NCBI GenBank assembly: GCA_030407315.1
Contig: JALQPE010002603.1
Coordinates: 62,001 to 126,000 of the forward strand
Length of the DNA stretch: 64,000 bases
From: Asparagopsis taxiformis
Lineage: Eukaryota > Rhodophyta > Florideophyceae > Bonnemaisoniales > Bonnemaisoniaceae
Reading direction: 5' to 3'
The position numbers and the translations under genes are program-made. Every line of letters begins with the position of its first letter. The first letter of the stretch is position 1. Shown here one piece after another: positions 18,001 to 56,103 of the stretch. Below the pieces are notes generated by a model. That model was not told where the DNA came from, made no database searches, and was given only the letters and a program-made list of their open reading frames with translations.

Positions 18001-18570
18001 ACCCACACTAAGGCAGGCGATTCGCCTTTGCTCTACCACACTCAACTCGAGCCTGACTACCGAGACAGGAGGGCTCGAACACCTCGCGGTGGCTCGCCGA
18101 TTCGGCTTACAGCCAAGGCTGCCCGTTGTCGAATCGACCAAGCCATTGCACTACAAAGGCGCATCTTGTACACGAAAAAGAAGCCGGCACAGCGCGTGTG
18201 GAGGGTACATCTCATCGTGCAATTTGCCACCAATCTAAGATATGAACTGCATATACCAACGAGCTTTTCGAAGAGTGATGGCTGCACAGAAAAACACACC
18301 CCTGCAGTCGAAACTACCAGACGATAGTCGATGATGTGAAGGATGCAGAGAAAGGTGTGACAGACAGGTAAAAATGAAAGCAGAGGGAAGTTCTCGCATA
18401 TGTCCTGGATCGAAATTAAGCCCAACGAAATGTATTATAAGTGCAACGTCTGTGTTTTCGGAAGTGGACGCGGACGTCCAGTCTCTCTAGTACGGGTCCT
18501 AGTCGGCCCCGAGATTTACTAGAACAAATGAACGTCCGCGTCCAAAAAAAATAAAAATTTTTTGGATGCG

Positions 18571-18842
18571 GACGTCCACTTTCTCTAGTACATATGGCGG
18601 AATACTAGGACCCGACATCCACTTTCTCTAGTACGTTTGGCGGAATACTAGGACCCGACATCCACTTTCTCTAGTACGTTTGGCGGAATACTAGGACCCG
18701 ACATCCACTTTCTCTAGTACGTTTGGCGGAATACTAGGACCCGACATCCACTTTCTCTAGTACATACAGCGGGATCCTAGGGCCCGACATCCACTTTCTC
18801 TAGTACATATGGCGGAATACTAGGACCCGACATCCAGTATAC
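18571..18842 (+). repeat. 43-bp subterminal tandem array, about six units
   Basis: The unit begins GACATCCACTTTCTCTAGTA and recurs exactly every 43 bases (18614, 18657, 18700, 18743, 18786, 18829). Variants differ mainly in ACGTTT versus ACATAT. Subterminal tandem repeats of this type commonly bind the transposase in CACTA-like elements; that role here is inferred. Confidence 0.85.
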
Positions 18843-19914
18843 AATATATCAGCGAAAACCGGGAGGGAAGAAATTACCGCGGATGGTAAATTCAGGGCCC
18901 ATATCGGACCCTATTTTATTCTCTCATTTACGAAACTGCTCGTATACAATACGTCTCTCTAGAATAGGAAATACATATCTGGTCAGAATAGGAAATAAAT
19001 ACCCGGTTAGAATAGGAAATACGTATCCAGCCAGAATACGGAATATGTATCCAGCCAGAATACAAAATACGTATCCAGCCGGAATACAAAATACCTGTCA
19101 GCATATCGTCGATCACCCATCTCCCTCACTATCGCGTTCTCCCTACCATCCGAACGCCATGCACCACCATCCGCACATACTTCAAGAACCCTCACGACCT
19201 AGATTACAAAAAATACGCTCCTTCTCAATTCCATCCCAGCTTTCCTCGACACCACCCCAGCCCATTAAATCATCAAGACATCAAACACGAACATGGTCAG
19301 CAAAATCTTACACCACTTGAAACCCACTCTCACTTCTATCGTATGCCCCAAAATATACACATACCAGAAACACCTCACAGCTTCATTCTCCATCTTCCTA
19401 GATCCCTTCTTCACTCTCCTGGAGTCCTGCCGTTCCTGTTTCACCACTCCTGCATCACATACAAAACATCAACCTCAACAGTCAGATTCAAAAGCAACGC
19501 TTACCACGACAGATATCCTAGAAACTCCCTTACTTACCTCTCCGAGAGGATGAGTGAATCATCCATCCTACACAAAATACAAACCATGATCCAAAAACCT
19601 TGCAATGAATAATAATCATAGTCAGCAGTCCATATCTTCGCAAAACAAGTCTTGGTGCTCAGTGAAACTTACCTTCTGTCATCAACATTCCTGCACCATC
19701 TACACAACATCGGAATCAACCACAACAGTCAGACCCAAAACCAACCTTCCCTCGCTGCTTACTTTCAAAACTCGCACACTTACCTTCGCTCCACACAATA
19801 CACACCATCAGTCAACAGGCTTCCCATGAAAAATATCGCATCAACGGAAATAGTCAGACTCAAAACCCACGCTTCCCTCAACGCATACCCTCGAGGGTAG
19901 AGGATGGAACGAAG

Positions 19915-19952
19915 GTACGTGCGCGAATCTTGATCAAGATTCGCGCACGTAC
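19915..19952. repeat. Perfect 38-bp palindrome
   Basis: The sequence starting GTACGTGCGCGAATCTTGA is followed immediately by its exact reverse complement, with no loop. It sits at the point in the left arm where a CCTCGAGGG motif also marks a change of orientation relative to the inner arm. It could form a cruciform or mark a small inversion. Confidence 0.8.
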
Positions 19953-19975
19953 AAAGCAAAGTCGGTCAAAGAATA

Positions 19976-20164
19976 TCAGTCGGTGATGAGGGCGGAGTGG
20001 AGCCTGCGGCGTCGACCGGACAGCTTTCTGCGTCCGCTTAAGTCTTGCTGTGCATACTCGAAATCATCGCCGGCAGTGAGATTGAGTATGGCCCAAGCCA
20101 TGGTCTCTGATTCCCCGAACAATGAGATCCGGATCGAGAACAACGAATATAAACATATAATCAT
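19976..20164 (-). CDS. Small conserved transposon ORF, unknown function
   Basis: 62 aa from ATG 20164 to TGA 19976. The core (FSIRISxFGxSETMAWAI, then INL/LNL..GDD.EYAQQDLS) is shared at protein level with the inner element copy at 37047-37157, although the DNA has diverged. This suggests some coding constraint. The tail, with two LSGRR repeats, is present only here. It is transcribed away from the transposase toward the element end, just ahead of the microexon-like repeats. It may be a first exon. No family is recognised. Confidence 0.35.
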   Translation of the reverse strand: MIICLYSLFSIRISLFGESETMAWAILNLTAGDDFEYAQQDLSGRRKLSGRRRRLHSALITD

Positions 20165-20300: not shown

Positions 20301-20553
20301 AGTCGTTCGTCCTTCCATGCACACGTTGCCAGCACGCAATGTGATGTAACAGTTGGAAATGATTGAACTCTCGGTTAAATTCCACCGTTGGGATGTCAGC
20401 TGGAGTGAGCACAAAACTACTACCCACAAAACTACGAACGAACACGTTACATTCCAAGTCTTGAAAGCACCACAAAAATAAAATTGGTCGCATCTGGACG
20501 GCACAGTCTCCCCTGTTCAGCTCGCAATCCTCCCTTTTGCGTCAAAACTCGAC
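20301..20553. promoter_or_regulatory. Upstream region of the transposase
   Basis: About 250 bases between the left arm and the transposase ATG. They must carry the transposase promoter and, divergently, that of the small ORF. No specific motif is recognised. Confidence 0.35.
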
Positions 20554-22297
20554 ATGGAATGCAAGTATGAAGGGTGCTTCTACTACTGCGTAGATGCTTA
20601 TGCACTCGCGCTGCATGAGCGAACGTGTCGCTACCGTTTCAACCCCTCTCCCCAACATTTCAACAACGCTCGTGTCCCTGCCGTCACCCATGAGCTTGCT
20701 CGAAACGGCGACCATGATTCCCCGCAACCCAGCTCCCCAGACCCAGAATCTGGTCGTGCTTCCTCCAGCGACTCACCCTGTGACGCTCCACTGCCACCAA
20801 CCTCAACCCCCTCCCGCGCAGACCTTCTCGTGCAATCCCTCGCCGCCAGTCTCACAACCCTCGAGTACAAGGCCGGCGCTGGCCGCGTGAGCGAAGTCAT
20901 CACCATCCTACAAGACCCCGCATTCTCCCTAGAAAAGTTCAACAGCGCCGTTCGCACCGTAGAAGAATGTCGCCACGTTACCGCTTCCATGGTCGAAACA
21001 CATTTCCGCACCGAAGGTTACAAGAGCCAGATCATTCCAGACAAAACTGGTAAGTACTCGGCACAGCTGTACCTCCGCGACCCAGTCCACATGCTCCGCA
21101 GGCAGTTAGCACTGGCTAACGACCAAAATACTCTCTTCCACCCCTCCCCACAGACCGCCCCAGACGGCACCGCAATATTTTCTCATCCCCTACACACAGA
21201 ATTCGCGAAAACGCTGCACCAGGTTACTAGACAGCGCGTGCAGCTCTCGGAAGATCCACAGGTCGTATGGGCAGAGGAAACTGATCCCACCGCTTCCTCC
21301 TTTGCCGGCCTCCTCCAAGTGTACTCCGACAAGAGCAGCACAAGCCTTAAGAGCTCCGCAATCGTCGCATACCCCATACACGTCACACTGCTCAACTTCT
21401 CCGCCCCCCTCCGTCGCCACTGCATCCGTACCGGCCTCACCATCGTCGGGTATCTTCCGTACATTGTTAACCCTTCGTCCAACGCCTTGTTCGGTGATGA
21501 AATGCCGACAACCTCTAGTTCTGCTAGTCGCGCTCGCAAAATTGATATTCTTCATAAAGCACTCGAAAAAGTGTTTTCGTCCCTATCCACCGCGTTCTCT
21601 TCCGGGTTCCCCTGCACAGACTCCACTGCAACTGCCCGCCAATGCTTTCCCATCCTAGCCAATTATTACTGCGCGACTTTCCAGAGGCCAAAGAGCTGTC
21701 ATGCACTCGCAACAGCACTACCACCACACATCCCTGCCACCGCTGCTACATCCCCGCCACTCAACTTGAATCCACCGCGCCACACCAGCCCCGCTCCCTC
21801 GATGATACACGCTCTGCACGCCAAGAGAGCGCTCAGGAGCATACAACTGCTCCGCTCGAAGCTCTCTCCCTCCTCGAACAACACTCTGTCCTCGAATCGA
21901 CCGCTCTTTTACCCACCAACAGTCCCCTAGACCCCTACAACATTTTCTCCTTCGAGCCTCTGCACAATCTCCACCTCGGCATCTCAAAGCTCATCAAACA
22001 CTGCATTGTCCACCGCCTCAGCTCCCCAGACCTCATCACCACCACTGCCTCCCATTCCGGGACACCTCGCACCTTCAAGAAGGTGAAAAAATCCATCCTC
22101 GCCGGCTCAAACAGCATTCTGTCCGCTATCGAACGCGACTACTACATCACCGGTCTTCATGTCGACTTCTCCAAGGGTGAGAAGGGCACCAATTTGAACG
22201 GCCTCTTCACGGAGGACGGCATACGCGGCATGCTCGCAGCCAAAGACTATCACCATGTCGACATGGTGTTCCCTTTCATCGCAGCATTCATTGACAC
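20554..22297 (+). pseudogene. Plavaka-like transposase, 5' part, broken by a frameshift and by element insertion
   Basis: ATG at 20554. Residues 3-~24 (CKYEGC..YC...YALALHERTC) form an N-terminal C2H2-like zinc finger, usual in this family. A Pro/Ser-rich linker follows, then YLRDPVHMLRRQLA, then VYSDKSSTSL with a candidate catalytic Asp, then VAYPIHVTLLNFSAPLRRHC and IVGYLPYI, matching the Plavaka core pattern of D-K-T-x-L...AYPVYLTL-N...R...YLP. Near 21660-21680 the frame shifts: NYY ends in one frame and RDFPEAKELSCTRN continues in another, with a CHRC pair. The next conserved block is FEPLHNLHLGISKLIKHCIV. At 22297 the inner element interrupts the gene, which resumes at 40402. Plavaka transposases are DDE enzymes related to CACTA types. 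This copy cannot make an intact protein. Confidence 0.72.
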
Positions 22298-23256
22298 CGT
22301 CTGTGTTCTCGGAAATGGACGCGGACGTCCACAACCTCTAGTACACCTAGTATTACTAGGCGGACGTCCATGTTCTCCAGTATTTTTGGATGTCCGCCTA
22401 GAACTGGACGTCCATGCGGTCTAGTACGTCTAGTATTACTAGGGCGACATTCAATGTTTCTAGTACCACGGATGTCCCCCTCGGGATGGACTTCCGCCAT
22501 GTCTATGTCCACCTAGGACGGGCGCCGGTTCAGAAATTCAAAAATTTCGACCCCAGAAATTTCTGCCGCCGTGCTCGACATGGATGTCCGCATCCATCAC
22601 GGCGACCACTCTATTTTTCCTTGTCGGTCGACTCCAATTTCGTCTTTAATTTTTTCATCCTCTCGCTCACACCCCCTTCCTGTTGGTGCTCACCTCCCCC
22701 GTACTGTACCTCAAACACCCCCAATACCACTCTAGCACGCATTTTCAGATACCTATCCCCGCTTCCACGGTGCACACCTCCATTCCATACCTACTTTTCT
22801 GCTCTACCGTACAGATTTCGTATAACCAGTCCTCATACTACCTCAGAATAGGGCAAAACACCCCCTATCTCCTCGACCATGCTCTCCCCCATCACCTTTG
22901 AAACGTATTGTTCTTCAGTACCCTCTCTCCTCTACCCTCAACCCCTCTCCTTCGCCCTCTACACAAACTTCCCCTGCAGCTTACTCTTCCAAAACCTCTC
23001 ACTCCCCATCCCGTACCCGACCTGCTCCACCCCTCCCTCCCTCAGCTGCTCCATGCCCCCACGCCATCCGCATCTTCGATACCGTATACACCACCACCAC
23101 CGGCCCACGCTCCCGCACTGCGGGGTGGCTCCCCCGCCGTATCCCCAGAAACCTCCCCGCTCTGAAACACATATCAACCCCCCACTTCGCACCCTTCCTC
23201 CCACTCCCCTCCCTCCCCAAATACAATAACCCCCTTCTTCTCCATCACATCCCCAC

Positions 23257-23505
23257 TCACCACAGCCAGAACAGACGCCACCCCCTCCCCTTCTTTCTCC
23301 TCACTTTCCTAAAAACCCCTCCTCTCGGCGCCTTCAACCGCACCCTCCTACGGTCCCACCTAAACACCTCCTCCGCCCTCACTACCCCAACACCCCGCAG
23401 CGTCTCCCCAATCCCCATAATATGCTTGTCGGCACTCCTCTCCGAATCACAATCCATTCTAAACCCGCACTCCGTACATTTCCACCTCCCCCTGTACCAT
23501 CCCAA
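23257..23505 (-). CDS. Small zinc-finger-like ORF in the inner right arm, doubtful
   Basis: 82 codons beginning GWYRGRWKCTECGFRMDCD, with the pairs C-x2-C and a following HIMG. The segment up to about RVRLK is nearly the same as in the outer copy at 54895-55239, but the downstream parts go out of register because of indels. It may be a decayed gene, or merely conserved arm DNA. Confidence 0.2.
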   Translation of the reverse strand: MGWYRGRWKCTECGFRMDCDSERSADKHIMGIGETLRGVGVVRAEEVFRWDRRRVRLKAPRGGVFRKVRRKKGRGWRLFWLW

Positions 23506-24269
23506 GATTCCATCCCCCCACAGAACACATCCTCATACCACAGAAGAATTTTCTTCCTCTCATACCTCATCCTTAAAACCTCCATCAGCTCCATGTAAAT
23601 TTCGATGAAAATATTTTCTCTACTATGCAATCTCAAACATGTATGAGCCTATGCCTTTCCGCTTTGTCAACCCTGAATATTGGTACTCATGTATTCATAA
23701 AATAGGGCCACCCACATCCCTATCCCGTTCTGCAAGCTTTACAAACCACTAGACGCATACTCCACAACTATACAACAAACACTACTCGCTATTTCAGACG
23801 ACGCGGTACACAAGTAGCGTAGTGTCAACCTTCCGTGACGCCTTCCCTGATGCGTACAAGTGGGAAACACGTCTAGACGTATATCAGAACTGAGTGCGGG
23901 AATTTTCGGCACAGGAGATGCTGGGCCACCAAATTGATTTTTCGGAAATTTTAGAATTTCTGGGCTGGCCAGCAATGCAATCGAGCTGGACATCCACCGG
24001 ACGTCCATTTCAGGTTGGTCGCGAGAGGGTGGGGCGGGACCATGATGAAACAAGGACCAAGACCTTTCCCTGACGTGTTGAGCCTGAAATCGACCCTTCG
24101 TGAGACGCGATTTTGGCTTACAGTTGGTGCTAATAGAAGCCAGTGATAGCCCCGATCGGGGCGGCAGCCGGCTCCGGCTTACAGTTGGTGCTTACAGACG
24201 CCAGTGATAGCCCCCGATCGGGGCCGGCGGTCGGTTCCTGGGGCCGTTGTGGCCAAATTAGACACCCTG

Positions 24270-24470
24270 ATTTGAATTAAAATTTGGGCTATTCTCAAAA
24301 ACATGCAGATGTGAACATGTTTTTGAGATGGGGGTGTGCCGTACGGCACAATCGACCTGCCCAAATCGTTGATTTTTTACAATTTTTTGTGCCCGAAATT
24401 TTAGAATTTCTGGGCTGGCCAGCAGTGCAATCGAGCTGGACATCCACCGGACGTCCATTTCAGGTTGGTC
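24270..24470 (+). repeat. Dispersed palindromic repeat (full copy, described here)
   Basis: A 180-200 bp unit seen about 13 times in the two elements. In order it contains AAATTTGGGCTATTCTC; an inverted repeat CTCAAAAACATG / CATGTTTTTGAG around CACATGTG; GGGGGTGTGCCGTACGGCAC with the perfect 14-bp palindrome GTGCCGTACGGCAC; an A/T tract; AAATTTTAGAATTTCTGGGC; and GGACATCCACCGGACGTCCA, which resembles GGACGTCC motifs in the element ends. Copies are very similar and occur in both orientations. They yield many meaningless short open frames. It may be a binding site of an element protein, or a small non-autonomous element. Confidence 0.85.
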
Positions 24471-24654
24471 GTGAGAGAGTGAGGCGGGACCATGATGGAA
24501 CAAGGACCAAGACCTGTCCCTGGCGTATTGAGCCTGAAATTGACCCTTCGTAAGACGCGATTTTGGCTTACAGTTAGTGCTTACAGAAGCCAGTGATGGC
24601 CCCACTCGGGGCGGCGGCCGGTTCCTGGGGCCGTTGTGGCCAAATTAGACACCC

Positions 24655-24860
24655 TGATTTGAATTAAAATTTGGGCTATTCTCAAAAACATGCACATGTG
24701 AACATGTTTTTGAGATGGGGGTGTGCCGTACGGCACAATCGACCGCCCAAATCGTTGATTTTTGCAAGATTTTTTGTGCCCGAAATTTTAGAATTTCTGG
24801 GCTGGCCAGCAGTGCATCTGAGCTGGACATCCACCGGACGTCCATTTCAGGTTGGTCGTG
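24655..24860 (+). repeat. Dispersed palindromic repeat
   Basis: Second of three tandemly arranged copies in the inner right arm, spaced about 390-500 bp, with both palindromes intact. Confidence 0.85.
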
Positions 24861-25159
24861 TGCTGCCTACATCCACGCATTGCAGAAACTAAGCCAGCGG
24901 GTTCACTACTAATACAAAGTACACGGAATATGAGTAACGTGATAGGTGAGTAGTGTTTGTGTTGAGGGAGTAAGGCGGGACCATGATGAAACAGGGAAAA
25001 AGATGTCACCCAAGCATAACTTAGGCTTCAAGCCTGGAATCGAACCTTCGTAAGACGCGATTTTGGCTTACAGTTAGTGCTTACAGAAGCCAGTGATGGC
25101 CCCGCTCGGGGCGGCGGCCGGTTCCTGGGGCCGTTGTGGCCAAATTAGACACCCTGATT

Positions 25160-25360
25160 TGAATTAAAATTTGGGCTATTCTCAAAAACATGCACATGTG
25201 AACATGTTTTTGAGATGGGGGTGTGCCGTACGGCACAATCGACCGCCCAAATCGATGTTTTTTGCAATATTTTTTTCTGCCCTGAATTGTAGAGTTTCTG
25301 GGCTGGCCAGCAATGCATCTGAGCTGGACATCCACCGGACGTCCATTTCAGGTTGATCGT
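25160..25360 (+). repeat. Dispersed palindromic repeat
   Basis: Third copy in the inner right arm. Its A/T tract reads TGCAATATTTTTTTCTGCCC, the same subtype as the copy at 53945. Confidence 0.85.
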
Positions 25361-25629
25361 GTATCGTGCACGTCCACCCATTACCGGAAGCAAGTAGGCG
25401 ATGAAGCACGTACAAACCCAATTGTTCTGCTATTTCTACCATAGACCATCGAGTCTAGAGATGTGAGGGAATCGTCCTGGAAATCATGCTCCAACCCACG
25501 AGGGAATGGACAATCTAGTTTGAAAGCATGGAACGGAAGTACATTATACTAGGTTCATAGATTGGAAGTGATAAAGGAGATGATTATATTCTCGATAATT
25601 GTTTACCAAAGTAGTAGTTGTTAAGCTAT

Positions 25630-28600
25630 CTAGCCGTCGGAAAATTGTTCTTCCTCTTCGTCCTCACTATATTCAGGATCTCCCGGCAGAATAGGCGTTA
25701 TCGGCAACTGTGGAGTTGAATAGCTCAAGAAGAATTTTTGACCCGGTGTGAGGGTTCTCTTCTTGGGAGCTTCTGTCGTCTTCATCCGCATGATTCCGAG
25801 TTGCCCTGTCTTCGGCCTACGATCTTTCTTGACCGGGATGGGAACAACTGTCTTGTGGCGAACATTGACAGGTGCCGGTTGACTTTGCCTGGCAGACCGG
25901 CGCGGAGCATTGGCGATTACTTCTTCTTCGAATCCCAACCGCCTGATGAAACCAAACGAAACATTGTCGGGAATCGGATACGACGCATTCCTGAAATACG
26001 TGTGATACCTCGTTGTCGTGTGTGACACAACTCTGTCGACATGCCCTGCCCCGGCATGTTGTACATGGCCGTGACCGATGAAGACTGAACGTGGCGGAAC
26101 GATTACCTTCTTCAGCTTCATCGTCTTGGCGTACATATCTAATTCCAGCGCTTTGGAAAAGACGTACTTGTGGGACCCTGGACACACCCAGATAGGGAAT
26201 GGGTCATCTCCGTTGGCAATAACAAAGTAACCCGGAAGTTGATCTTTGCGGTCGCGAGGAGGAACAGGGAAATCATTGTGTGGGACCTGCCGAGGACACC
26301 CCTTTCCCGTTATCAAAAACCGTCCCCCAGATGCCGGCATGACAAGTTTTTCTCCCGGTAAACCGCACTCCTCCAGCCCTATCAGCCGGACAAGGATTCC
26401 CAACCACACATCCAGCAGGGCTCGCCGCGTCACAAACTTGAACCGGTCGATATGCGTCTCATCGTTCTCGGCATAGTCAACTAGGCAGTGGCGCGTAGAC
26501 GTGAAGCGAGCCCTCCCCTCATTCCGGTTCTTCTCATCTGTTTCATCGTCCCCAGTATTGACAATGGGACTCCACAGCTGCCGGTTCCCAGGGTCCTTGT
26601 GCACCTCCTCCCCCTCCCACGTTCCCAAAAAGTACCGAAACAATTCCTGGTTAGGAATTTCTTCCATGAGACCCAAGTCAAATGGGAACTTGTCCGACGC
26701 ATCGAGGTAGCTTACATCCGCGAAATTGTGCATCACCGTATACCCTCGCTCGTTGATTTCCGTTCGGCAATTGTGGAAGTACGCCATACCAGTGCCGGCC
26801 TCATACGAATCCTTCCAGCTTGTAGACATTCGCGCAACCTGGGCGAAGTCCAGCCTCGAGGGTAGAAACGTCGATGTAGGCTCACACATCGCCTTGGCAG
26901 CCATCTTCCACGCTGCGAAAAACATCGGATAGATGGTGTCGATCTCGAAAACAAGATGACGAGCCCGATGTTGTTCCGGAATATGCAGCCCCTCAAACAC
27001 AGGGTCCATCGCCACTTGTTTCAAATACCTCACCTCTCTGCCCTCCTCATCGATTTCCACACTCTCCAATAACAACCTGAGCTCAATCGGGGGCAGACAG
27101 CCAACCCTCACCGATGCGATGACGTCCGCGGGACGCTGCGCCAGATGATGCCCTTCAGCTCGGTCTTTGACTTCGAAATCGTCGGGAAGAGATGGCATCC
27201 GGTCGTCGAACAGGAGGTCGTGTTCAGAAGGAGAGTCACGAACGATGTAACCGTCTTCATCGACTTCCACTCCTTCCGGAACAGTGAATGTAATTGTCAC
27301 TTCGCGGACCCCCTTGCTTTCGACTTGGCCCACGTCTGCACCCTGTTTGTCTTCCTCGTCCGAAGCGGTATGGACAGATTCTTGGTTGGAGGGAGTCGCA
27401 CCAGCACGTTGGTTATCTTGGGGGACAATCTCAACGGCAGAATCGGGGGAACGGGCGGAGTCTTCGTCAACCTCATCACCGGAAGCAGTGGCTTGTTGTT
27501 GATCGGTGGGTTTATCAACAACGGCCTGCTCTTCTTCCCCGGCGGATTGTTGTACCACAACCGGCTCTTCTTCCTCGAGGCGTGTGCTCCCCGTCGAGCG
27601 AAGTCGCTGTGAACGGCGGCGGATGCCATGCGAAGCAGGCTCATGTTCGACATTCCGCTGCTTCTTGTGAGTGAGTCTCACATTGGCAGCAGAAGGGCGG
27701 CGTTTGCGTCGAGCCTTAGTCTTCTTCTTCAATGTCGGATTGAAAAACTCTTTCAAGTTCGTTTCCAAATCCTGTAAACGCGTGGTTCTCCGTCGCATTC
27801 GAACCTCACTGCTCCGGTCGTCCCCTCTATACATTGCAATGGCATTGGTGAGATGCCATTGCAACTCCTTCGGCTGCTTAACCGACCCAATTGCCATCTC
27901 TGTGCTCAGAAATGACTTGCGCATAATACTCTTTGGGCGCCCATACGCAGCGTACAGAGAATTTGCTATTGCAGTCACGCGACGGACGTATGTATAGAAG
28001 TCGTTCACGTCAAAGCGTCCATCCGGACGTCCACCATGAGCAGGGTTCAAGTACTCCGAAAGACCACGCAAGACGAAGACAAAGTTTTCTTCCAGCAACT
28101 CGCGCACTATCTTGTGGTCCAGGTGCGTTATCCCAATCTCGTTGCGGCGCTCGGAATTGTTCAGCTCACGCAACACTTCGTCGAGAACAGGATGCTTCAG
28201 CGTTGCTATAGCCAAACGCGTCCACCGCCGGGCCGTGTTCGTTGAATTCATCATCCCCATGAACTGCGCCTCGAACAATGTTCGGATGACATCAGACTCA
28301 CGCAAGTCGCCAGCGTTTTCCACGTTATTTGCAACAGCAATCGTACGGATGAACTGCTGGATGGACGACAAGATTCGAACCAGGGAGCGCTCCGTCAGTT
28401 GCGTCCCAGTCGTATGGTTCGACTCTGCACTCTTGTGGATGATCTCATGAGGCTGAAGATCACTGTCGTCCTTGCGGCGAAGGTAGTACACATCCAGAGG
28501 CTGAGTAACCCAGCGCAAGCGGTTTGCGTCCTGTGGCAGCTTGGTTCTGTGCATACGGGTGAGGCGCGTGAAGTCATCGGCAATGCTATGCATAGCATTG

Positions 28601-30559: not shown

Positions 30560-30640
30560 GCCCGAAATTTTAGAATTTCTGGGCTAGCCAGCAATGTAAT
30601 TAAGCCGGACATCCACCAGACGTCCATTCTGGGTTGTTCG
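30435..30640 (+). repeat. Dispersed palindromic repeat
   Basis: Full copy that runs into the outer end of the 1.6-kb inverted arm. Its last part reads CACCAGACGTCCATTCTGGG, a variant shared with 36440-36530. Confidence 0.8.
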
Positions 30641-40276: not shown

Positions 40277-40401
40277 CGCATCCAAAAAATTTTTATTTTT
40301 TTTTGGACGCGGACGTTCATTTGTTCTAGTAAATCTCGGGGCCGACTAGGACCCGTACTAGAGAGACTGGACGTCCGCGTCCACTTCCGAAAACACAGAC
40401 G

Positions 40402-44065: not shown

Positions 44066-44670
44066 AATGAAGCTTTCCCGGAAGCGATGGAACGATTGAG
44101 TTGCACGAGATACAAAAAAGATTGCTGTATAGTGTCGGTAACCACAACGGTCTGCGATGAACGTTCAGGTCAGGTCAAGTACCGGATAATACGCCAACAG
44201 CCCAGATTGTATACGGTAGGCAGTCATCAACAGTATTTAATGAGGTACAATTACAGCTGTCGAGCTAGGCCGCGAGCACCCCTATGTCCGGAAGACGTCC
44301 TGATTTGAATTAAAATTTGGGCTATTCTCAAAAACATGCACATGTGAACATGTTTTTGAGATGGGGGTGTGCCGTACGGCACAATCGACCCGCTGAAATC
44401 GATGTTTTTTGCAATATTTTTTTCTGCCCTGAATTGTAGAATTTCTGGGCTGGACAGCAATGCAACTGAGCTGGACATCCACCGGGCGTCCATTTCAACT
44501 TGGTCGTGTATTTTGCATCTGCACGCATAACAGCATCCAAGCAGTCAGGTTCACTGCTCGGACGAAGTGCACCTGGAGTGTGAACGATTGGTTTTTGACA
44601 GGCGAGTACTGCTCAATAGGTTTCACCCTGGACTAATGGTGGCTGGACATGCTGCATTATATGATATACT
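44066..44670. other. Spacer between the 559-aa ORF and the methyltransferase-SET gene
   Basis: It contains one dispersed palindromic repeat (44300-44505). The rest is the promoter of the 559-aa ORF and the 3' flank of the methyltransferase gene. No other gene is seen. Confidence 0.45.
44300..44505 (+). repeat. Dispersed palindromic repeat
   Basis: Copy inside the outer element, ending with the variant CACCGGGCGTCCATTTCAAC. Both palindromes are intact. Confidence 0.85.
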
Positions 44671-47600: not shown

Positions 47601-47916
47601 TGAAGGCCATGCTGAGTCGACCTTGCAGCGCCAGAAATTGTTCTTCTGTGCCCTGCGCAACCCAAGCGCCAAGGTCCGCGTATGTGAAACCTCCCGGCTT
47701 GTCCGTCAAGTCTGCGAAACTTGAGTGGGCGAACAAATCCAGCAAGAGGCGGAGGAAGTCTTTGCCAGCGAGAGTAGTTTCGCGGGCGGCGCGACCTACG
47801 TTTCGACGTGTACCCATGTCACTAGAATCCTCCCAAGGGCTAGCGGGTTCGCGCAGAATTGGCACGGTTGCGTCGTCAACGATCGGATTGCTGTTGCGCC
47901 TGCGCTTATTCGTCAT
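44671..47916 (-). CDS. DNA (N6-adenine or N4-cytosine) methyltransferase fused to a SET-like domain
   Basis: 1081 aa, single exon, ATG at 47916. Residues 1-~480 are unfamiliar, with a basic start (TNKRRRN). The catalytic motif LILTDPPYNVL (DPPY 507-510) precedes the AdoMet-binding motif DIVVDPFSGTFATG (DPFSGT 744-749). This is the IV-then-I order of beta-class amino-methyltransferases (PF01555 type) such as CcrM/MboII. An acidic insert (DGSDEEEVTS... through ADEDEEEEDVV, ~570-625) sits between them. A SET-like domain begins near 895 (IKHPNAGRGLFA, H903; VGDEVCAYYGTVV), with QFINDPR and ANVEFVE in the place of the usual NHS region, and VVRAIRDIRPG near the end. The usual final GEEL..DYG is altered (GRSSTFIMG), so catalytic activity of the SET part is uncertain. 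It is divergent with the ParB-dioxygenase gene. Methylation of DNA by the protein is inferred from motifs. Confidence 0.82.
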   Translation of the reverse strand: MTNKRRRNSNPIVDDATVPILREPASPWEDSSDMGTRRNVGRAARETTLAGKDFLRLLLDLFAHSSFADLTDKPGGFTYADLGAWVAQGTEEQFLALQGRLSMAFSGRSKNAGVEADVAEIVMAEMNVERAKQIVRLALPIAEFSRQDERIGQWVEHCILSGIVPQTFLIGCNMLPSPLQAPQRGEPSAFVLAPPETFEVLMYFQALSIIRNHNKNLPRRRIGDAAEEGNEAARVPAHRKSTNRACYVVQVLYHAWTDVAFAAKFSSFEELMAPYIIFDSSEHWFDVLDEGLFAPMEQKLDLYHDKAPLSHPDGYGGKVETRTSAQHSAFRDLVRKFFDRLQFLIVNPDLYTWPESDRWGALEIYLSSGNPDKLPAYFDTLDEDVMAVLRPAPQAADAEKVPKPVDDTPTRRNTGGRGLVPSTRHTTRLQLGPGRTSLTAQGPSPPSPSPHATEEQESEGQALAKDFLSKMSQYCRVYDVPFEDLVSADESREHVPITGNVQLILTDPPYNVLRKRNDSNSSYDRLTAEDMQASIEVFDELLRPGGHGIVFCSVLQFYEWFHYLETYKGPQSEGPTDAAASDDGSDEEEVTSMNSDSEASQHSGEESADEDEEEEDVVRNSVFFVDEVPLLFVRLPGHLYQMPGRKRYQRMNMAEVAIHFWKRGVPFKTGSEMVAYRNHGYMDGTYPAWCNVTINMPAIDSNEMVWRTRSTTGATVRVRAEQKSVALMMELISQHSQPGDIVVDPFSGTFATGKAAMSLPEHRVFVGSDMDKLCVARSLPKLCAVMSRVILSNNTDMRVTTEAKQSAEKFLASPSVTMRTQRERRIIEPPPGLPLYQRFPKYIRQYLWQLCPESIASHEHMEKPVHYWPPSLRRWLQTENPRVMRAHDCVAKKLSVRPSLIKHPNAGRGLFAEQTFNVGDEVCAYYGTVVYSDMSKESMRFAYGEGHMAITKETFLMYAIKLYATAEDDENIEHPIWIVPAPFCSAQFINDPRYLRGEDTPAEDTRRMANVEFVENYSSGSTGKKLKAKDLENPKIIVVRAIRDIRPGRSSTFIMGQRLEHGIRFTKDVFISTTNKATFQS

Positions 47917-48173
47917 AATGGAATGAGTGGAAATTCGGTACAGGATGGCGACCGCTCGGCGAGACAGTCAAATTTGACGACGTATCTCGTGACGTTTGCA
48001 CTCTTTCGTGAGGAACACTGGTTGATATCGAACGGAACAGAGTATACGGGTACACAGCACTGGAAAGGTCTTGAAACCCGTAACCGGTGTAGGTAATAAG
48101 TTGTGACGGATACGTGGTAGACAAAAATTTTAAAAAGATTGTGATTCCCTGTCTTTGAGGGTTGTACTGCACG

Positions 48174-48203
48174 GCCGCCATGGCGGCTGTGACTGCAGTC
48201 ACA
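48174..48203. promoter_or_regulatory. Two abutting perfect palindromes, candidate operator
   Basis: GCCGCCATGGCGGC (48174-48187) is immediately followed by TGTGACTGCAGTCACA (48188-48203). Both are perfect inverted repeats with no spacer between them. They are 258-287 bases upstream of the methyltransferase ATG. Binding is not shown. Confidence 0.55.
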
Positions 48204-48249
48204 TAGGTTGTCACAGGTGCATCACGCTTACCAGGTGAGCGACATCCGG

Positions 48250-48445
48250 ACGGCCACTGGACATGGGGATGTCCAGCTCAGATGCATTGCTGGCCAGACC
48301 AGAAATTCTACAATTTCGGGCAGAAAAAATATTGCAAAAAACATCGATTTCGGCGGTCGATTGTGCCGTACGACACATCCCCATCTCAAAAACATGTTCA
48401 CATGTGCATGTTTTTGAGAATAGCCCAAATTTTAATTCAAATCAG
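48250..48445 (-). repeat. Dispersed palindromic repeat
   Basis: Copy with a mutated palindrome (GTGCCGTACGACAC), the only one noticed with a change in this 14-mer. Confidence 0.8.
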
Positions 48446-48710
48446 GATGCAGATATTCGTCTTCTAGCATTGTCAGAACACATTCGTATAACCACATTTG
48501 GAGAACCTGAGCCCAGAGCTATCGGTTTTGGCGGGAGCTAAGCCATATCTCATATAATCAGTAACTACTTCCCGCCAGCTGAGTGGTGGAACCCCTGCTA
48601 TTTCTACCAACGAGACATACGGGGTGTCAACTCGGCAATCGTATATGATTTGGGTGCTAAATTTATTCAAGAGACGAATGGGCTTCGAAAAGGAGCCCAA
48701 CAACGTCTTC

Positions 48711-49194: not shown

Positions 49195-49365
49195 GCTATT
49201 GCATTACTGGCCAGCCCAGAAATTGTAGAATTTCGGGCAGAAAAAAATTGTAAAAAACCTTGATTTCAGCGGGTCGATTGTGCCGTACGGCACACCCCCA
49301 TCTCAAAAACATGTTCACATGTGCATGTTTTTGAGAATAGCCCAAATTTTAACTCAAATCAGGGT
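49195..49365 (-). repeat. Dispersed palindromic repeat
   Basis: Copy about 350-520 bases upstream of the outer ParB-dioxygenase ATG. It lacks the GGACGTCC end and starts within GCATTACTGGCCAGCCC. Confidence 0.8.
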
Positions 49366-49710
49366 GTTCCCCGGATAAAGGGGTGCTCGCAGCCGCCCCA
49401 AAAGCCGCCTAGCTTGACAGCTGTAATTTTAACACATTACACATCAAGGACACTGCCTGCTTCACGCCACCTCGTCAGGTTTCGAGAGCCCGACTCGGGC
49501 CCGTTCCGAACGGACACTCACATCTCGATTGCCTGTCTTGCATTCCAGCGGTCACGATAGGTGTGTACCTAACAAAATTTCGGTTGTATTGTGTTATTAT
49601 TTCCAGCGATTGGCGTTCACGACCATTCTTCAAGCAACGTGAAACCTACCATCCACATCACTCGAATACGTCAACGTCAACCATCTCTTTTCCTTTCCAA
49701 CTCAACAACC

Positions 49711-52700
49711 ATGGCGGATACGCATTTCAGCAGTTTGTTTTCAACGGTTTGCGGCGATCAAGTGAGCGCGTCAGCGGAGTCGCGCGGACTCAAGCGCGGC
49801 GTCGATGTCAATTTGTTTGCGGACGTGGACGGTGCGGCTGTGCATATTGGGACGGCTTCGGTGAGCACTGCTGGTGGCGATGTTGGCCTTCCGCGCACGC
49901 TGCACAACCACCAGCTGCCGGGAACCGACGAGGCGGACTATATCGTCGTGCGCAACATTGCGACTAAGGACAAGTTCAAGGACCTCCCGTTCCCGTACAT
50001 GTTTGATGGCGCCGAGGGACCGCCGGAGACGATGGGTGGAGCATACGCCGCGGCGTTTTACCCTTGGGATACTCGGATGATGCGCCCCGCTGCGGAGGAT
50101 GGCCCTAGCGACATTCGTACCCCTGCTGCAGCGTCAAACTTCAACGCAGCGACGAACCAGGCCAGCTCGGGACGGATGCCCAGTACCGGTCCGGCAGGCG
50201 AAATCACTGGTTCGGGGGGTACGAAGCATCCAGCACGCTCCATTCCGGTTTCGGGAGGCACGAAGCGCCCTGCTCGCTCTGCAAGACCCTCCAGTGGAGG
50301 CACGAAGCACCCTGCTCGCTCCAACGTCACCGAAGCTACTACGCAGGACGTAACCGAAGTGGACGACGAACCGGAGGTGGCGGAAAGCATTCGTGAGCAG
50401 CAGGGGACGCAAATTACGGTGCCCAAGTTTGTGACGTCGGATTACGTCGGAGAAGGAGCGACTGTGCTGGTGAGGCAGCTAGTGGAACCGGCCGTGACCC
50501 TTCGGGATGTGAAAGAAGACCACGTGGAGGACCTGCGCAACAATATGTTGGCTGTGGGGTATGTGAGCTCTTCGCGTATCACTGTGACGGTGCTGAGGTC
50601 GCAGAACACGCATCTGCCCGCCGACACGCGTCTGTTCCAGAATGGCAAATTCCATGCCAATGCGAACGTGACCGTGATCGACGGACTGCATCGTCTCAAT
50701 GCTATGCATAGCATTGCCGATGACTTCACTCGCCTCACCCGTATGCACAGAACCAAGCTGCCACAGGACGCAAACCGCTTGCGCTGGGTTACTCAGCCTC
50801 TGGATGTGTACTACCTTCGCCGCAAGGACGACAGTGATCTTCAGCCTCATGAGATCATCCACAAGAGTGCAGAGTCGAACCATACGACTGGGACGCAACT
50901 GACGGAGCGCTCCCTGGTTCGAATCTTGTCGTCCATCCAGCAGTTCATCCGTACGATTGCTGTTGCAAATAACGTGGAAAACGCTGGCGACTTGCGTGAG
51001 TCTGATGTCATCCGAACATTGTTCGAGGCGCAGTTCATGGGGATGATGAATTCAACGAACACGGCCCGGCGGTGGACGCGTTTGGCTATAGCAACGCTGA
51101 AGCATCCTGTTCTCGACGACGTGTTGCGGGAGCTGAACAATTCCGAGCGCCGCAACGAGATTGGGATAACGCACCTGGACCACAAGATAGTGCGCGAGTT
51201 GCTGGAAGAAAACTTTGTCTTCGTCTTGCGTGGTCTTTCGGAGTACTTGAACCCTGCTCATGGTGGACGTCCGGATGGACGCTTTGACGTGAACGACTTC
51301 TATACATACGTCCGTCGCGTGACTGCAATAGCAAATTCTCTGTACGCTGCGTATGGGCGCCCAAAGAGTATTATGCGCAAGTCATTTCTGAGCACAGAGA
51401 TGGCAATTGGGTCGGTTAAGCAGCCGAAGGAGTTGCAATGGCATCTCACCAATGCCATTGCAATGTATAGAGGGGACGACCGGAGCAGTGAGGTTCGAAT
51501 GCGACGGAGAACCACGCGTTTACAGGATTTGGAAACGAACTTGAAAGAGTTTTTCAATCCGACATTGAAGAAGAAGACTAAGGCTCGACGCAAACGCCGC
51601 CCTTCTGCTGCCAATGTGAGACTCACTCACAAGAAGCAGCGGAATGTCGAACATGAGCCTGCTTCGCATAGCATCCGCCGCCGTTCACAGCGACTTCGCT
51701 CGACGGGGAGCACACGCCTCGAGGAAGAAGAGCCGGTTGTGGTACAACAATCCGCCGGGGAAGAAGAGCAGGCCGTTGTTGATAAACCCACCGATCAACA
51801 ACAAGCCACTGCTTCCGGTGATGAGGTTGACGAAGACTCCGCCCGTTCCCCCGATTCTGCCGTTGAGATTGTCCCCCAAGATAACCAACGTGCTGGTGCG
51901 ACTCCCTCCAACCAAGAATCTGTCCATAACGTTTCGGACGAGGAAGAAAACAACAGTGCAGATGAGGGCCAAGTCGAAAGCAAGGGGGTCCGCGAAGTGA
52001 CAATTACACTCACTGTTCCGGAAGGAGTCGAAGTCGATGAAGACGGTTACATCGTTCGTGACTCTCCTTCTGAACACGACCTCCTGTTCGACGACCGGAT
52101 GCCATCTCTTCCCGACGATTTCGAAGTCAAAGACCGAGCTGAAGGGCATCATCTGGCGCAGCGTCCCGCGGACGTCATCGCATCGGTGAGGGTTGGTTGT
52201 CTGCCCCCGATTGAGCTCAGGTTGTTATTGGAGAGTGTGGAAATCGATGAGGAGGGCAGAGAGGTGAGGTATTTGAAGCAAGTGGCGATGGACCCTGTGT
52301 TTGAGGGGCTGCATATTCCGGAACAACATCGGGCTCGTCATCTTGTTTTCGAGATCGACACCATCTATCCGATGTTTTTCGCAGCGTGGAAGATGGCTGC
52401 CAAGGCGATGTGTGAGCCTACATCGACGTTTCTACCCTCGAGGCTAGACTTCGCCCAGGTTGCGCGAATGTCTACAAGCTGGAAGGATTCGTATGAGGCC
52501 GGCACTGGTATGGCGTACTTCCACAATTGCCGAACGGAAATCAACGAGCGAGGGTATACGGTGATGCACAATTTCGCGGATGTAAGCTACCTCGATGCGT
52601 CGGACAAGTTCCCATTTGACTTGGGTCTCATGGAAGAAATTCCTATCCAGGAATTGTTTCGGTACTTTTTGGGAACGTGGGAGGGGGAGGAGGTGCACAA

Positions 52701-53667
52701 GGACCCTGGGAACCGGCAGCTGTGGAGTCCCATTGTCAATACGGGGGACGATGAAACAGATGAGAAGAACCGGAATGAGGGGAGGGCTCGCTTCACGTCT
52801 ACGCGCCACTGCCTGGTTGACTATGCCGAGAACGATGAGACGCATATCGACCGGTTCAAGTTTGTGACGCGGCGAGCCCTGCTGGATGTGTGGTTGGGAA
52901 TCCTTGTCCGGCTGATAGGGCTGGAGGAGTGCGGTTTACCGGGAGAAAAACTTGTCATGCCGGCATCTGGGGGACGGTTTTTGATAACGGGAAAGGGGTG
53001 TCCTCGGCAGGTCCCACACAATGATTTCCCTGTTCCTCCTCGCGACCGCAAAGATCAACTTCCGGGTTACTTTGTTATTGCCAACGGAGATGACCCATTC
53101 CCTATCTGGGTGTGTCCAGGGTCCCACAAGTACGTCTTTTCCAAAGCGCTGGAATTAGATATGTACGCCAAGACGATGAAGCTGAAGAAGGTAATCGTTC
53201 CGCCACGTTCAGTCTTCATCGGTCACGGCTATGTACAACATGCCGGGGCAGGGCATGTCGACAGAGTTGTGTCACACACGACAACGAGGTATCACACGTA
53301 TTTCAGGAATGCGTCATATCCGATTCCCGACAATGTTTCGTTTGGTTTCATCAGGCGGTTGGGATTCGAAGAAGAAGTAATCCCCAATGCTCCGCGCCGG
53401 TCTGCCAGGCAAAGTCAACCGGCACCTGTCAATGTTCGCCACAAGACAGTTGTTCCCATCCCGGTCAAGAAAGATCGTAGGCCGAAGACAGGGCAGCTCG
53501 GAATCATGCGGATGAAGACGACAGAAGCTCCCAAGAAGAGAACCCTCACAGCGGGTCAAAAATTCATCTTGAGCAGATCAACTCCACAGTTGCCGATAAC
53601 GCCTATTCTGCCGGGAGATCCTGAATATAGTAGGGACGAAGACGAAGAAGAATTTTCCGACGGCTAG
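49711..53667 (+). CDS. ParB-like / 2OG-Fe(II) dioxygenase-like fusion protein, outer copy
   Basis: 1318 aa from ATG 49711 (acaaccATGgcg). Residues ~168-206 carry three SGGTK(H/R)PARS repeats, probably disordered and DNA- or chromatin-contacting. A ParB/Srx-like domain spans about 230-420: EDHVEDLRNNMLAVGYVSSS, then TVIDGLHRLNAMHSIADD (D324, G325, H327, R328) and later SAESNHTTGTQLTE. A helical region follows, then a basic (KKKTKARRKRRPSAANV) and acidic linker. The C-terminal domain (~880-1230) has PhyH/2OG-dioxygenase marks: VPHNDF with H1103 and D1105, WVCPGSHK at 1133-1140, and a distal metal-ligand candidate H1177 in VQHAGAGH, with Arg 1185 or 1193 as 2-oxoglutarate candidates. ParB-like proteins bind or nick DNA; 2OG dioxygenases of nucleic acids oxidise methyl groups. 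Demodification of DNA or histones is inferred, not shown. No ParA partner is present. Confidence 0.85.
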   Translation: MADTHFSSLFSTVCGDQVSASAESRGLKRGVDVNLFADVDGAAVHIGTASVSTAGGDVGLPRTLHNHQLPGTDEADYIVVRNIATKDKFKDLPFPYMFDGAEGPPETMGGAYAAAFYPWDTRMMRPAAEDGPSDIRTPAAASNFNAATNQASSGRMPSTGPAGEITGSGGTKHPARSIPVSGGTKRPARSARPSSGGTKHPARSNVTEATTQDVTEVDDEPEVAESIREQQGTQITVPKFVTSDYVGEGATVLVRQLVEPAVTLRDVKEDHVEDLRNNMLAVGYVSSSRITVTVLRSQNTHLPADTRLFQNGKFHANANVTVIDGLHRLNAMHSIADDFTRLTRMHRTKLPQDANRLRWVTQPLDVYYLRRKDDSDLQPHEIIHKSAESNHTTGTQLTERSLVRILSSIQQFIRTIAVANNVENAGDLRESDVIRTLFEAQFMGMMNSTNTARRWTRLAIATLKHPVLDDVLRELNNSERRNEIGITHLDHKIVRELLEENFVFVLRGLSEYLNPAHGGRPDGRFDVNDFYTYVRRVTAIANSLYAAYGRPKSIMRKSFLSTEMAIGSVKQPKELQWHLTNAIAMYRGDDRSSEVRMRRRTTRLQDLETNLKEFFNPTLKKKTKARRKRRPSAANVRLTHKKQRNVEHEPASHSIRRRSQRLRSTGSTRLEEEEPVVVQQSAGEEEQAVVDKPTDQQQATASGDEVDEDSARSPDSAVEIVPQDNQRAGATPSNQESVHNVSDEEENNSADEGQVESKGVREVTITLTVPEGVEVDEDGYIVRDSPSEHDLLFDDRMPSLPDDFEVKDRAEGHHLAQRPADVIASVRVGCLPPIELRLLLESVEIDEEGREVRYLKQVAMDPVFEGLHIPEQHRARHLVFEIDTIYPMFFAAWKMAAKAMCEPTSTFLPSRLDFAQVARMSTSWKDSYEAGTGMAYFHNCRTEINERGYTVMHNFADVSYLDASDKFPFDLGLMEEIPIQELFRYFLGTWEGEEVHKDPGNRQLWSPIVNTGDDETDEKNRNEGRARFTSTRHCLVDYAENDETHIDRFKFVTRRALLDVWLGILVRLIGLEECGLPGEKLVMPASGGRFLITGKGCPRQVPHNDFPVPPRDRKDQLPGYFVIANGDDPFPIWVCPGSHKYVFSKALELDMYAKTMKLKKVIVPPRSVFIGHGYVQHAGAGHVDRVVSHTTTRYHTYFRNASYPIPDNVSFGFIRRLGFEEEVIPNAPRRSARQSQPAPVNVRHKTVVPIPVKKDRRPKTGQLGIMRMKTTEAPKKRTLTAGQKFILSRSTPQLPITPILPGDPEYSRDEDEEEFSDG

Positions 53668-53944
53668 ATAGCTTAACAACTACTACTTTGGTAAACAATT
53701 ATCGAGAATATAATCATCTCCTTTATCACTTCCAATCTATGAACCTAGTATAATGTACTTCCGTTCCATGCTTTCAAACTAGATTGTCCATTCCCTCGTG
53801 GGTTGCAGCATGATTTCCAGGACGATTCCCTCACATCTCTAGACTCGATGGTCTATGCTAGAAATAGCAGAACAATTGGGTTTGTACGTGCTTCATCGCC
53901 TACTTGCTTCCGGTAATGTGTGGACGTGCACGATACACGATCAA

Positions 53945-54150
53945 CCTGAAATGGACGTCCGGTGGATGTCCAGCTCAGATGCATTGCTGGCCAGCCCAGA
54001 AATTCTACAATTCAGGGCAGAAAAAAATATTGCAAAAAACATCGATTTCGGCGGTCGATTGTGCCGTACGGCACACCCCCATCTCAAAAACATGTTCACA
54101 TGTGCATGTTTTTGAGAATAGCCCAAATTTTAATTCTAATCAAGGTGTCT
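53945..54150 (-). repeat. Dispersed palindromic repeat
   Basis: The only full copy in the outer right arm; a half copy (54395-54480) follows. The inner arm has three full copies at the matching place. Confidence 0.85.
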
Positions 54151-54894
54151 AATTTAGCCACAACAGCCCCAGGAACCGACCGCCGGCCCCGATCGGGGGC
54201 TATCACTGGCGTCTGTAAGCACCAACTGTAAGCCGGAACCGGCCACCGCCCCGATCGGGGCTATCACTGGCTTCTACAAGCACCAACTGTAAGGCTAAAT
54301 GGCGTCTCACGAAGGGTCGATTTCAGGCTCAATACGCCAGGGACAGGTCTTGGTCCTTGTTTCATCATGGTCCCGCCCCACTCTCTCACGACCAACCTGA
54401 AATGGACGTCCGGTGGATGTCCAGCTCGATTGCATTGCTGGCCAGCCCAGAAATTCTAAAATTTCCGAAAAATCAATTTGGTGGCCCAGCATCTCCTGTG
54501 CCGAAAATTCCCGCACTCACTTCTGATATACGTCTAGACGTGTTTCGCACTTGTACGCATCAGGGAAGGCGTCACGGAAGGTTGAGACTACGCTACTTGT
54601 GTACCGCGTCGTCTGAAATAGCGAGTAGTGTTTGTTGTATAGTTGTGGAGTATGCGTCTAGTGGTTTGTAAAGCTTGCAGAACGGGATAGGGATGTGGGT
54701 GGCCCTATTTTATGAATACATGAGTACCAATATTCAAGGGTGCCAAACGGAAAGTCATAGGCTCGTACATGTTTGAGATTGCATAGTAGAGAAAATATTT
54801 TCATCGAAATTTACATGGAGCTGATGGAGGTATTAAGGATGAGGTATGAGAGGAAGAAAATTCTTCTGTGGTATGAAGATGTGTTCTGTGGGGG

Positions 54895-55239
54895 GTGGAT
54901 GGAATCTTGGGATGGTACAGGGGGAGGTGGAAATGTACGGAGTGCGGGTTTAGAATGGAGTGTGATTCGGAGAGGAGTGCCGACAAGCATATTATGGGGA
55001 TTGGGGAGACGCTGCGGGGTGTTGGGGTAGTGAGGGCGGAGGAGGTGTTTAGGTGGGACCGTAGGAGGGTGCGGTTGAAGTCGCCGAGAGGAGGGGTTTT
55101 TAGGAAAGTGAGGAGAAAGAGGGGGAGGGGGGTGGCGTCTGTTCTGGCTGTGGTGAGTGGGGATGTGATGGAGAAGAAGGGGGTTATTGTATTTGGGGAG
55201 GGAGGGGAGTGGGAGGAAGGGTGCGAAGTGGGGGGTTGA
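54895..55239 (+). CDS. Small zinc-finger-like ORF in the outer right arm, doubtful
   Basis: 114 codons (starting MDGILGWYRGRWKCTECGF). C-x2-C, a following cysteine and HIMG suggest a short metal-binding motif, then an Arg-rich stretch. It shares about 60 residues with 23257-23505 and then diverges by frame. The G-rich composition may generate the open frame by chance. Confidence 0.22.
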   Translation: MDGILGWYRGRWKCTECGFRMECDSERSADKHIMGIGETLRGVGVVRAEEVFRWDRRRVRLKSPRGGVFRKVRRKRGRGVASVLAVVSGDVMEKKGVIVFGEGGEWEEGCEVGG

Positions 55240-56103
55240 TATGTGTTTCAGAGCGGGGAGGTTTCTGGGGAGACGGCGGGGGAGCGGGAGCGTGGGCCGG
55301 TGGTGGTGGTGTATACGGTATCGAAGATGCGGATGGCGTGGGGGGCATGGAGCAGCTGAGGGAGGGAGGGGTGGAGCAGGTCGGGTACGGGATGGGGAGT
55401 GAGAGGTTTTGGAAGAGTAAGCTGCAGGGGAAGTTTGTGGAGAGGGCGAAGGAGAGGGGTTGGAGGTAGAGGAGTGAGGGTACTGAAGAACAATACGTTT
55501 CAAAGGTGATGGGGGAGAGCATGGTCGAGGAGATAGGGGGTGTTTTGCCCTATTCTGAGGTAGTATGAGGACTGGTTATACGAAATCTGTACGGTAGAGC
55601 AGAAAAGTAGGTATGGAATGGAGGTGTGCACCGTGGAAGCGGGGATAGGTAGCTGAAAATGCGTGCTAGAGTGGTATTGGGGGTGTTTGAGGTACAGTAC
55701 GGGGGAGGTGAGCACTAACAGGAAGGGGGTGTGAGCGAGAGGATGAAAAAATTAAAGACGAAATTGGAGTCGACCGACAAGGAAAAATAGAGTGGTCGCC
55801 GTGATGGATGCGGACATCCATGTCGAGCACGGCGGCAGAAATTTCTGGGGTCGAAATTTTTGAATTTCTGAACCGGCGCCCGTCCTAGGTGGACATAGAC
55901 ATGGCGGAAGTCCATCCCGAGGGGGACATCCGTGGTACTAGAAACAATGAATGTCGCCCTAGTAATACTAGACGTACTAGACCGCATGGACGTCCGGTTC
56001 TAGGCGGACATCCAAAAATACTGGAGAACATGGACGTCCGCCTAGTAATACTAGGTGTACTAGAGGTTGTGGACGTCCGCGTCCATTTCCGAGAACACAG
56101 ACG

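Follow-up and report, generated by a model that had tools for sequence, protein, structure and literature searches.

The described systems closest to the one reported here are the fungal Plavaka transposons that carry TET/JBP genes, in which, according to the accessible part of PMC12730594, a Plavaka-type transposase travels with dioxygenase-type cargo that possibly acts on silencing. Both components recur, with the same reservation about function, in a transposon at positions 18447–56103 of a 64,000-nucleotide stretch of DNA from Asparagopsis taxiformis (contig JALQPE010002603.1, positions 62,001 to 126,000), which we refer to below as the window. This transposon, element A, encodes a transposase, a predicted DNA amino-methyltransferase (MTase) joined to a SET-like domain, and a ParB-like/dioxygenase-like protein of 1358 amino acids (aa). 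Its cargo differs from that of the fungal elements in several ways: there is no TET/JBP match, and no sequence relationship to that family is detectable in the dioxygenase-like domain; a ParB-like region is joined to this domain; and the amino-methyltransferase–SET protein is an addition. The termini differ as well, PlavakaA having TGT..ACA and PlavakaB CATCA..TGATG where the present family has CGTCTGTG..CACAGACG, whereas the 2-bp duplications described there for PlavakaA and some PlavakaB are shared.

The same paper, in its accessible part, also names SET-bearing HarbingerS and MuDR transposons. A SET domain on a DNA transposon is common to these and to element A, but in A the domain is fused to a DNA amino-methyltransferase and accompanies a different transposase. 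Retrotransposons of dinoflagellates and charophytes likewise bring their own DNA methyltransferase; these, in the portion of PMC5890265 available, are C5-cytosine enzymes, whereas the enzyme here is of the N6/N4 type and rides on a DNA transposon. The bdelloid rotifer protein N4CMT (PMC8885841, accessible part) joins a PF01555 amino-methyltransferase to a eukaryotic chromatin domain, as ours does, but it is a host gene, has a chromodomain, and is tied to the marking of transposons; ours is transposon-borne, present in hundreds of copies, and carries SET, instead. The rotifer enzyme is said there to have no eukaryotic homologs. The giant Plavaka repeats of Amoebidium are different again: the cargo named in the available text of PMC11244446 consists of tyrosine recombinases. 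Every type of component is known from one mobile element or host or another; what seems to be new is the set, and the fusion. Among the titles, abstract openings and passages covered by our searches of the open-access literature, none describes the combination, subscription papers and Repbase reports lying outside that scope.

Anatomy of element A

Element A is a Plavaka-superfamily DNA transposon. Its terminal inverted repeats (TIRs) are 34 bp long, with 2 mismatches, and lie at 18447–18480 (top strand; the 'X' end) and 56070–56103 (bottom strand; the 'Y' end), where the end pattern is found. Their sequence is CGTCTGTGTT(T/C)TCGGAA(G/A)TGGACGCGGACGTCCA. The element reads 5'-CGTCTGTG...CACAGACG-3', and these termini were present in all 22 ends read across the family, among which the PlavakaA and PlavakaB termini were not found. 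The X end (TTTTCGGAAGT) can be distinguished from the Y end (TTCTCGGAAAT) in 99 of 100 listed sites, the exception, C59, being a hybrid. A subterminal array of 43-bp tandem units (18571–18836, strand not assigned) lies by the X end, with 6.2 of them in A and 9.2 in the nested sibling described below.

The transposase gene starts at 20482 on the top strand. PF18759 matches its first part with 51.2 bits (cut-off 26.3), and other copies in the genome with up to 91.4 bits. Plavaka transposases have C(2)C and H(3–4)H motifs between the second D and the last E (PMC12730594, accessible part); in ours CHRC is seen. Seven of the 11 elements that were read at both ends have identical 2-bp flanks, and four, A and a copy termed C88 included, have unequal ones; a 2-bp target site duplication is observed for the family.

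This gene is split. A reversed sibling, element B (22298–40401, bottom strand, 18.1 kb), sits inside it, its limits being the Y end (22298) and the X end (40401), and is flanked on both sides by AC (22296–22297 and 40402–40403). Five sibling transposases have the uninterrupted insertion site, TTGACACATGC, and transposases from other contigs align to 20482–22304 and then to 40402–41595. The 5' part (20482–22304) has a frame change near 21673; the 3' part occupies 40402–41703, also on the top strand. Without B, element A measures 19.55 kb. It is the reversed second copy that accounts for the long subterminal similarity seen when the window is compared with itself. B has a ParB-like/dioxygenase-like open reading frame (ORF) of its own, again of 1358 aa (25630–29706, bottom strand), and contains an inverted repeat of 1.6 kb (30564–32159 and 34935–36531), 99.6% identical across a 2.8-kb spacer.

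From X to Y, the transposase of A is followed by two ORFs on the bottom strand, one of 201 aa (41781–42386; no family above cut-off) and one of 559 aa (42386–44065; weak coiled-coil-type matches, all below cut-off), then by the MTase–SET gene (44671–47916, bottom strand; 1081 aa with a divergent end), and finally by the ParB-like/dioxygenase-like gene (49591–53667, top strand). The original prediction had described a Plavaka-like transposase between matching TIRs, in a probable red alga, and had placed the ends within a base of the TIRs that we find. The place and the gene content of that description stand; what it missed was the nested sibling and the split in the transposase.

A recurrent set of genes

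The assembly searched comprises 141.49 Mb in 3,156 contigs. Gene-signature patterns, with up to 3 mismatches, occur 983 times for the transposase, 959 times for the MTase and 912 times for the dioxygenase-like gene, and the 33-bp core pattern of the ends, with 2 mismatches allowed, occurs 2,745 times; all of the reversed-pattern controls gave 0. Geometry was read from the first 100 places in each list, best-matching first, a sample from which diverged copies are missing. Distances were taken on contigs C10–C284 for pairs no more than 60 kb apart (73 MTase, 92 dioxygenase and 99 transposase sites).

In 29 of 37 same-orientation pairs, transposase and MTase are 6,265–6,358 bp apart, and in 21 of 31 such pairs MTase and dioxygenase are 5.2–8.7 kb apart. 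When the MTase is flipped, the corresponding distances are 7.5–7.9 kb (7 of 16 opposite-orientation pairs) and 6.2–7.4 kb (16 of 24). An X end lies 3.1–4.5 kb upstream of the transposase at 30 of 40 sites (the Y end, as control, at 1 of 40), and a Y end lies 3.0–4.5 kb downstream of the dioxygenase signature at 22 of 25 (the X end, as control, at 1 of 25). Over 20,772 bp, copy C88 has in sequence the X end, transposase, MTase, dioxygenase signature and Y end; it is the sole other copy in which all five features were seen, and its flanks are unequal (TG and GT). The cargo had been proposed to belong to the transposon, and recurrent spacing and end positions do link it to the TIRs and the transposase. 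We also looked for complete copies ending inside the limits of A: C88 (20.8 kb) does not, and shorter X–Y elements without listed cargo exist, to which we return. The recurring set of this very large family, to which A belongs as a ~20-kb element, is a transposase by the X end, an MTase–SET gene in the middle and a ParB-like/dioxygenase-like gene by the Y end, an anatomy of which we are close to certain. Were some 900 copies complete, more than a tenth of the assembly would belong to the family, but this is an upper guess, many copies being partial. One further locus (C100:220070–230491) has a palindromic arrangement, X–transposase–transposase–X, of 10.4 kb.

The methyltransferase–SET protein

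PF01555 (N6_N4_Mtase) matches the MTase of the window with 57.2 bits (cut-off 26.7), and is above cut-off in all seven of the relatives found, one of them 98% identical and six at 26–31%. When the family profile is used, the best relatives in the PDB include DpnA, MboIIA and CcrM. The motifs DPP[YF]N and GDxVVDxFxGxFxT are kept in six of six MTase proteins, five of them 24–30% identical to the first. The Pfam match, together with a DPPY motif that lies N-terminal to the S-adenosylmethionine (SAM)-binding motif, firmly predicts a beta-class DNA amino-methyltransferase.

The SET half of the originally predicted fusion fares differently from copy to copy. In the window it scores 14.9 bits with PF00856, below the cut-off of 22.4, whereas in five of the seven relatives (P0001–P0005) it is above; it is not listed for P0006 and P0007. 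First-look candidates for genome copies of the gene numbered 4,559, ordered by their resemblance to that in the window, and 43 were scored. Nine of the 43, the window copy included, are matched over residues 1–1081, and 34 over residues 1–1050 only. The usual last SET motif is present in P0001, whose end is unlike that of the window copy, and is absent from the window copy; because of this different end and the absent motif, the SET domain of the window copy may be defective. No internal stop is present in 41 of the 43, these being the best-scoring copies only. A structure model of the protein has a mean predicted local distance difference test score (pLDDT) of 55.9, with 306 of 1065 residues at 70 or higher. 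Farther afield, none among the bacterial loci listed, at least 78 in number, reaches the SET part of the query, and of at least 12 viral loci, 11 cover the SAM-binding stretch only and one (L073) the MTase domain.

The palindromic repeats

Copies of a ~180-bp repeat bracket both cargo genes. Two of them, at 44293–44480 (top strand) and, inverted, at 48267–48447 (bottom strand), enclose the MTase gene, and two more, at 49198–49367 and 53935–54148 (both bottom strand), stand on either side of the ParB-like/dioxygenase-like gene. Each contains a 16-bp palindrome, TGTGCCGTACGGCACA, and further inverted repeats. Allowing 1 mismatch, this palindrome has 13 sites in the window (0.01 expected), and 13 repeat copies could be aligned; one copy, folded as RNA, gave a z of -4.0. 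Genome-wide there are 6,487 sites (control 0), and 88 of 100 listed ones are no more than 8 kb away from an element gene that is itself listed. The MTase gene, which lies between inverted repeats (44293–48447), appears flipped in part of the listed genome copies, which the inverted pair would fit. By hypothesis, the repeats may be loading sites for the ParB-like protein.

The ParB-like/dioxygenase-like protein

The 1358-aa ORF of the second cargo protein is present as predicted; the two domain names that had been given to it, ParB and dioxygenase, come from short motifs, with no hidden Markov model (HMM) match. The protein has no match in Pfam, NCBIfam or PHROG, and none in the PDB by single sequence. 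A Pfam search to a limit of E 10 returned nothing, the TET/JBP domain included, for either this protein or its relative P0008. For ParB specifically there is no Pfam match, and profile matches in the PDB are not significant (best E 0.77); nor did the same Pfam search give a ParB model for either of two bacterial fusions that have a ParB-like motif. A first protein search with the full sequence found no relatives, and P0008 was found with the C-terminal region: it is 35% identical over the region searched, 29% overall, and has the same layout. No viral relatives of the dioxygenase-like domain were found.

The motif DGxHR (DGxHR..A), which we take to be a ParB/Srx-domain signature, is kept in four of four ParB-like sequences. 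These include P0007, in which the DGxHR region is fused to a methyltransferase, instead, and in which the profile match is weak (20 columns, probability 46%). The pattern HxD...H with a downstream R is presumably that of a 2-oxoglutarate dioxygenase; HxD is kept in all three dioxygenase-like sequences, and the distal H and R in both sequences that reach so far. On these short motifs we call the protein ParB-like and dioxygenase-like, and no more. The gene has no internal stop in 33 of 34 scored copies (again the best-scoring only). In four Magnetococcales loci (L110, L117, L119 and L122), a ParB-like GNHR motif precedes a DPPY methyltransferase domain; in the two of these fusions examined with Pfam, only the methyltransferase is above cut-off.

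Beyond the Y end of A, at 57039–60741, is a gene of a second ParB-like/dioxygenase-like family, cut short here and with a full ORF of 1257 aa elsewhere. It is 29% identical to the first in the C-terminal domain and has at least 107 copies in the genome. On the contig this gene is found at 119039, 129700 and 140366, with proteins 100% identical, and repeated palindromic stretches of the TTACAGCAAAGTCATCGTAACGATGACTTTGCTGT type lie upstream of it (56584–56876). A third, partial copy of the ParB-like/dioxygenase-like gene follows at 60742–64000, also outside A. Together, 50079–60741 and 60742–64000 look like the start of a tandem duplication with a unit of 10.66 kb.

What the cargo may do

Judging from sequence, the cargo more likely than not takes part in the epigenetic control of the element, with a probability of about 0.6. 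The cargo would then be a chromatin-control module that serves the transposon. The MTase would write N6-methyladenine (6mA) or N4-methylcytosine (4mC) on element DNA, and the SET domain would link this DNA mark to a lysine mark, on histones or elsewhere. The second protein would be recruited to element DNA—perhaps by way of the palindromic repeats beside the genes—and there would oxidatively remove or alter either the element's mark or a silencing mark of the host. Copies of the element would in this way be held expressible or poised, and transposition timed. That the two proteins are specifically a writer and an eraser is doubtful. Less likely still is a self-contained system in which the MTase–SET protein writes, linking N-methylation of DNA to a histone mark, the ParB-like eraser loads on the 16-bp palindrome, slides along the element and strips the mark, in a host without C5-methylation, and flipping of the MTase gene could act as a switch.

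What is there to erase in such a host? The genome has 13 phycobilisome linker matches as well as eukaryotic genes such as anoctamin, which points to a red alga, and probable host genes are present in the window itself, as long single ORFs at 678–15096 (anoctamin, a Castor/Pollux-type channel, an AP-complex medium subunit and a DM13 protein). No candidate for a C5-methyltransferase (PF00145) was found in the genome, although introns could hide one; 10 of 14 control genomes were positive. Because none was found, a TET-like role on 5-methylcytosine seems less likely than one directed at histone marks or at the N-methylation of the element itself. Among other red algae, about 8% of the Gracilariopsis chorda genome is methylated, which speaks against a general absence of C5-methylation in the group, and a unicellular species marks its repeats with H3K27me3 (reviewed in PMC8566409).

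Several observations weigh against a role in epigenetic control, or against A as a working example of it. Element A is broken: its transposase is split and its SET end changed, and its flanking dinucleotides are unequal (AA and AT). SET enzymes usually have NH where this domain has ND, and because of this replacement the domain may be inactive. The ParB and dioxygenase labels have neither HMM nor structural support, the model of the C-terminal domain having a mean pLDDT of 32.6. The expected listed end is missing for 10 of 40 transposase sites and, for the dioxygenase, 3 of 25. Among 12 pairs of facing ends (11 computed, one of these X–X, and one, on C90, added by hand), six have no listed signature at all, although diverged genes could be missed. 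Five of these six measure 10.0–12.0 kb, and that on C90 11.5 kb; such X–Y elements of 10–12 kb are found on C11, C12, C14, C20, C49 and C90, and are presumably non-autonomous. Because half of the pairs carry no listed signature, the cargo may not be needed in cis.

Over its whole length, the ParB-like/dioxygenase-like gene has 16 synonymous and 29 nonsynonymous changes between A and B, two copies that were taken without regard to protein score; the ratio of nonsynonymous to synonymous change (pN/pS) is 0.58. Within residues 280–640 and 860–1250 there are 9 synonymous and 4 nonsynonymous changes (binomial P 0.0008), the limits of these putative domains having been set by hand from alignments, and the changes counted by eye after the list had been seen. 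The remaining changed codons fall in residues 34–218, 694–813 and 1265–1354. Given the whole-gene ratio, constraint shows in the putative domains only. Ratios for fetched copies (0.48 for the ParB-like/dioxygenase-like gene, 0.34 for the MTase and 0.40 for the transposase) were set aside, since most of those loci had been selected as the best matches to the protein or family, a choice that masks nonsynonymous changes.

The whole-gene ratio is what one might expect if both genes had been captured once and then amplified along with a successful transposon, to which they brought no benefit. Elements without listed cargo are common, as this explanation would have it, and hitch-hiking genes in young copies stay open for a while. 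We nevertheless judge it improbable: long retention is indicated by the constraint on the putative domains between A and B, by the relatives of like architecture, at 24–37% identity, that both proteins have, and by the second ParB-like/dioxygenase-like family in the same genome.

About equally improbable is self-protection in the manner of restriction-modification or DNA tagging, in which marking by the MTase would let the transposase, or a host nuclease, tell element DNA from host DNA, and the second protein would be a DNA-binding regulator or segregation factor rather than an eraser. The likeness of the MTase domain to bacterial beta-class enzymes such as DpnA, MboIIA and CcrM agrees with this, as does the fusion of ParB-like motifs to such MTases in P0007 and, by motif, in the four bacterial loci. 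Against it, no nuclease domain was recognized in the scanned ORFs of the element, and the two families have the HxD...H...R pattern of their C-terminal domains in common. Least probable by far, and rejected because gene order and spacing recur on many contigs, is that two unrelated elements or an assembly error mimic one cargo-bearing transposon: large inverted repeats do fill the window, and A and C88 have unequal flanks, but B has identical flanks and an insertion site that is uninterrupted in five siblings.

Implications

The genome paper on Asparagopsis taxiformis reports 66 N6_N4_Mtase genes as potentially its most striking feature, compared with 6, 5 and 4 in C. crispus, P. umbilicalis and G. 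chorda, and in its accessible part does not tie these genes to transposons (PMC12115072). They are probably cargo of the family described here. A figure legend in the same paper places methyltransferase genes on the contig with the bromoform (mbb) gene cluster, and these may be copies of the element.

If the epigenetic role is real, a DNA transposon has carried into a eukaryotic nucleus, and in hundreds of copies, a DNA methylation enzyme of bacterial type with a chromatin enzyme already attached. The 66 genes would then be explained as transposon cargo rather than by duplication of host genes, and PF01555 amino-methylation would have a further eukaryotic use besides that in bdelloid rotifers. 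The reality of 6mA or 4mC as a mark in such an alga could then be tested directly, the target loci being known and present in many copies per genome.

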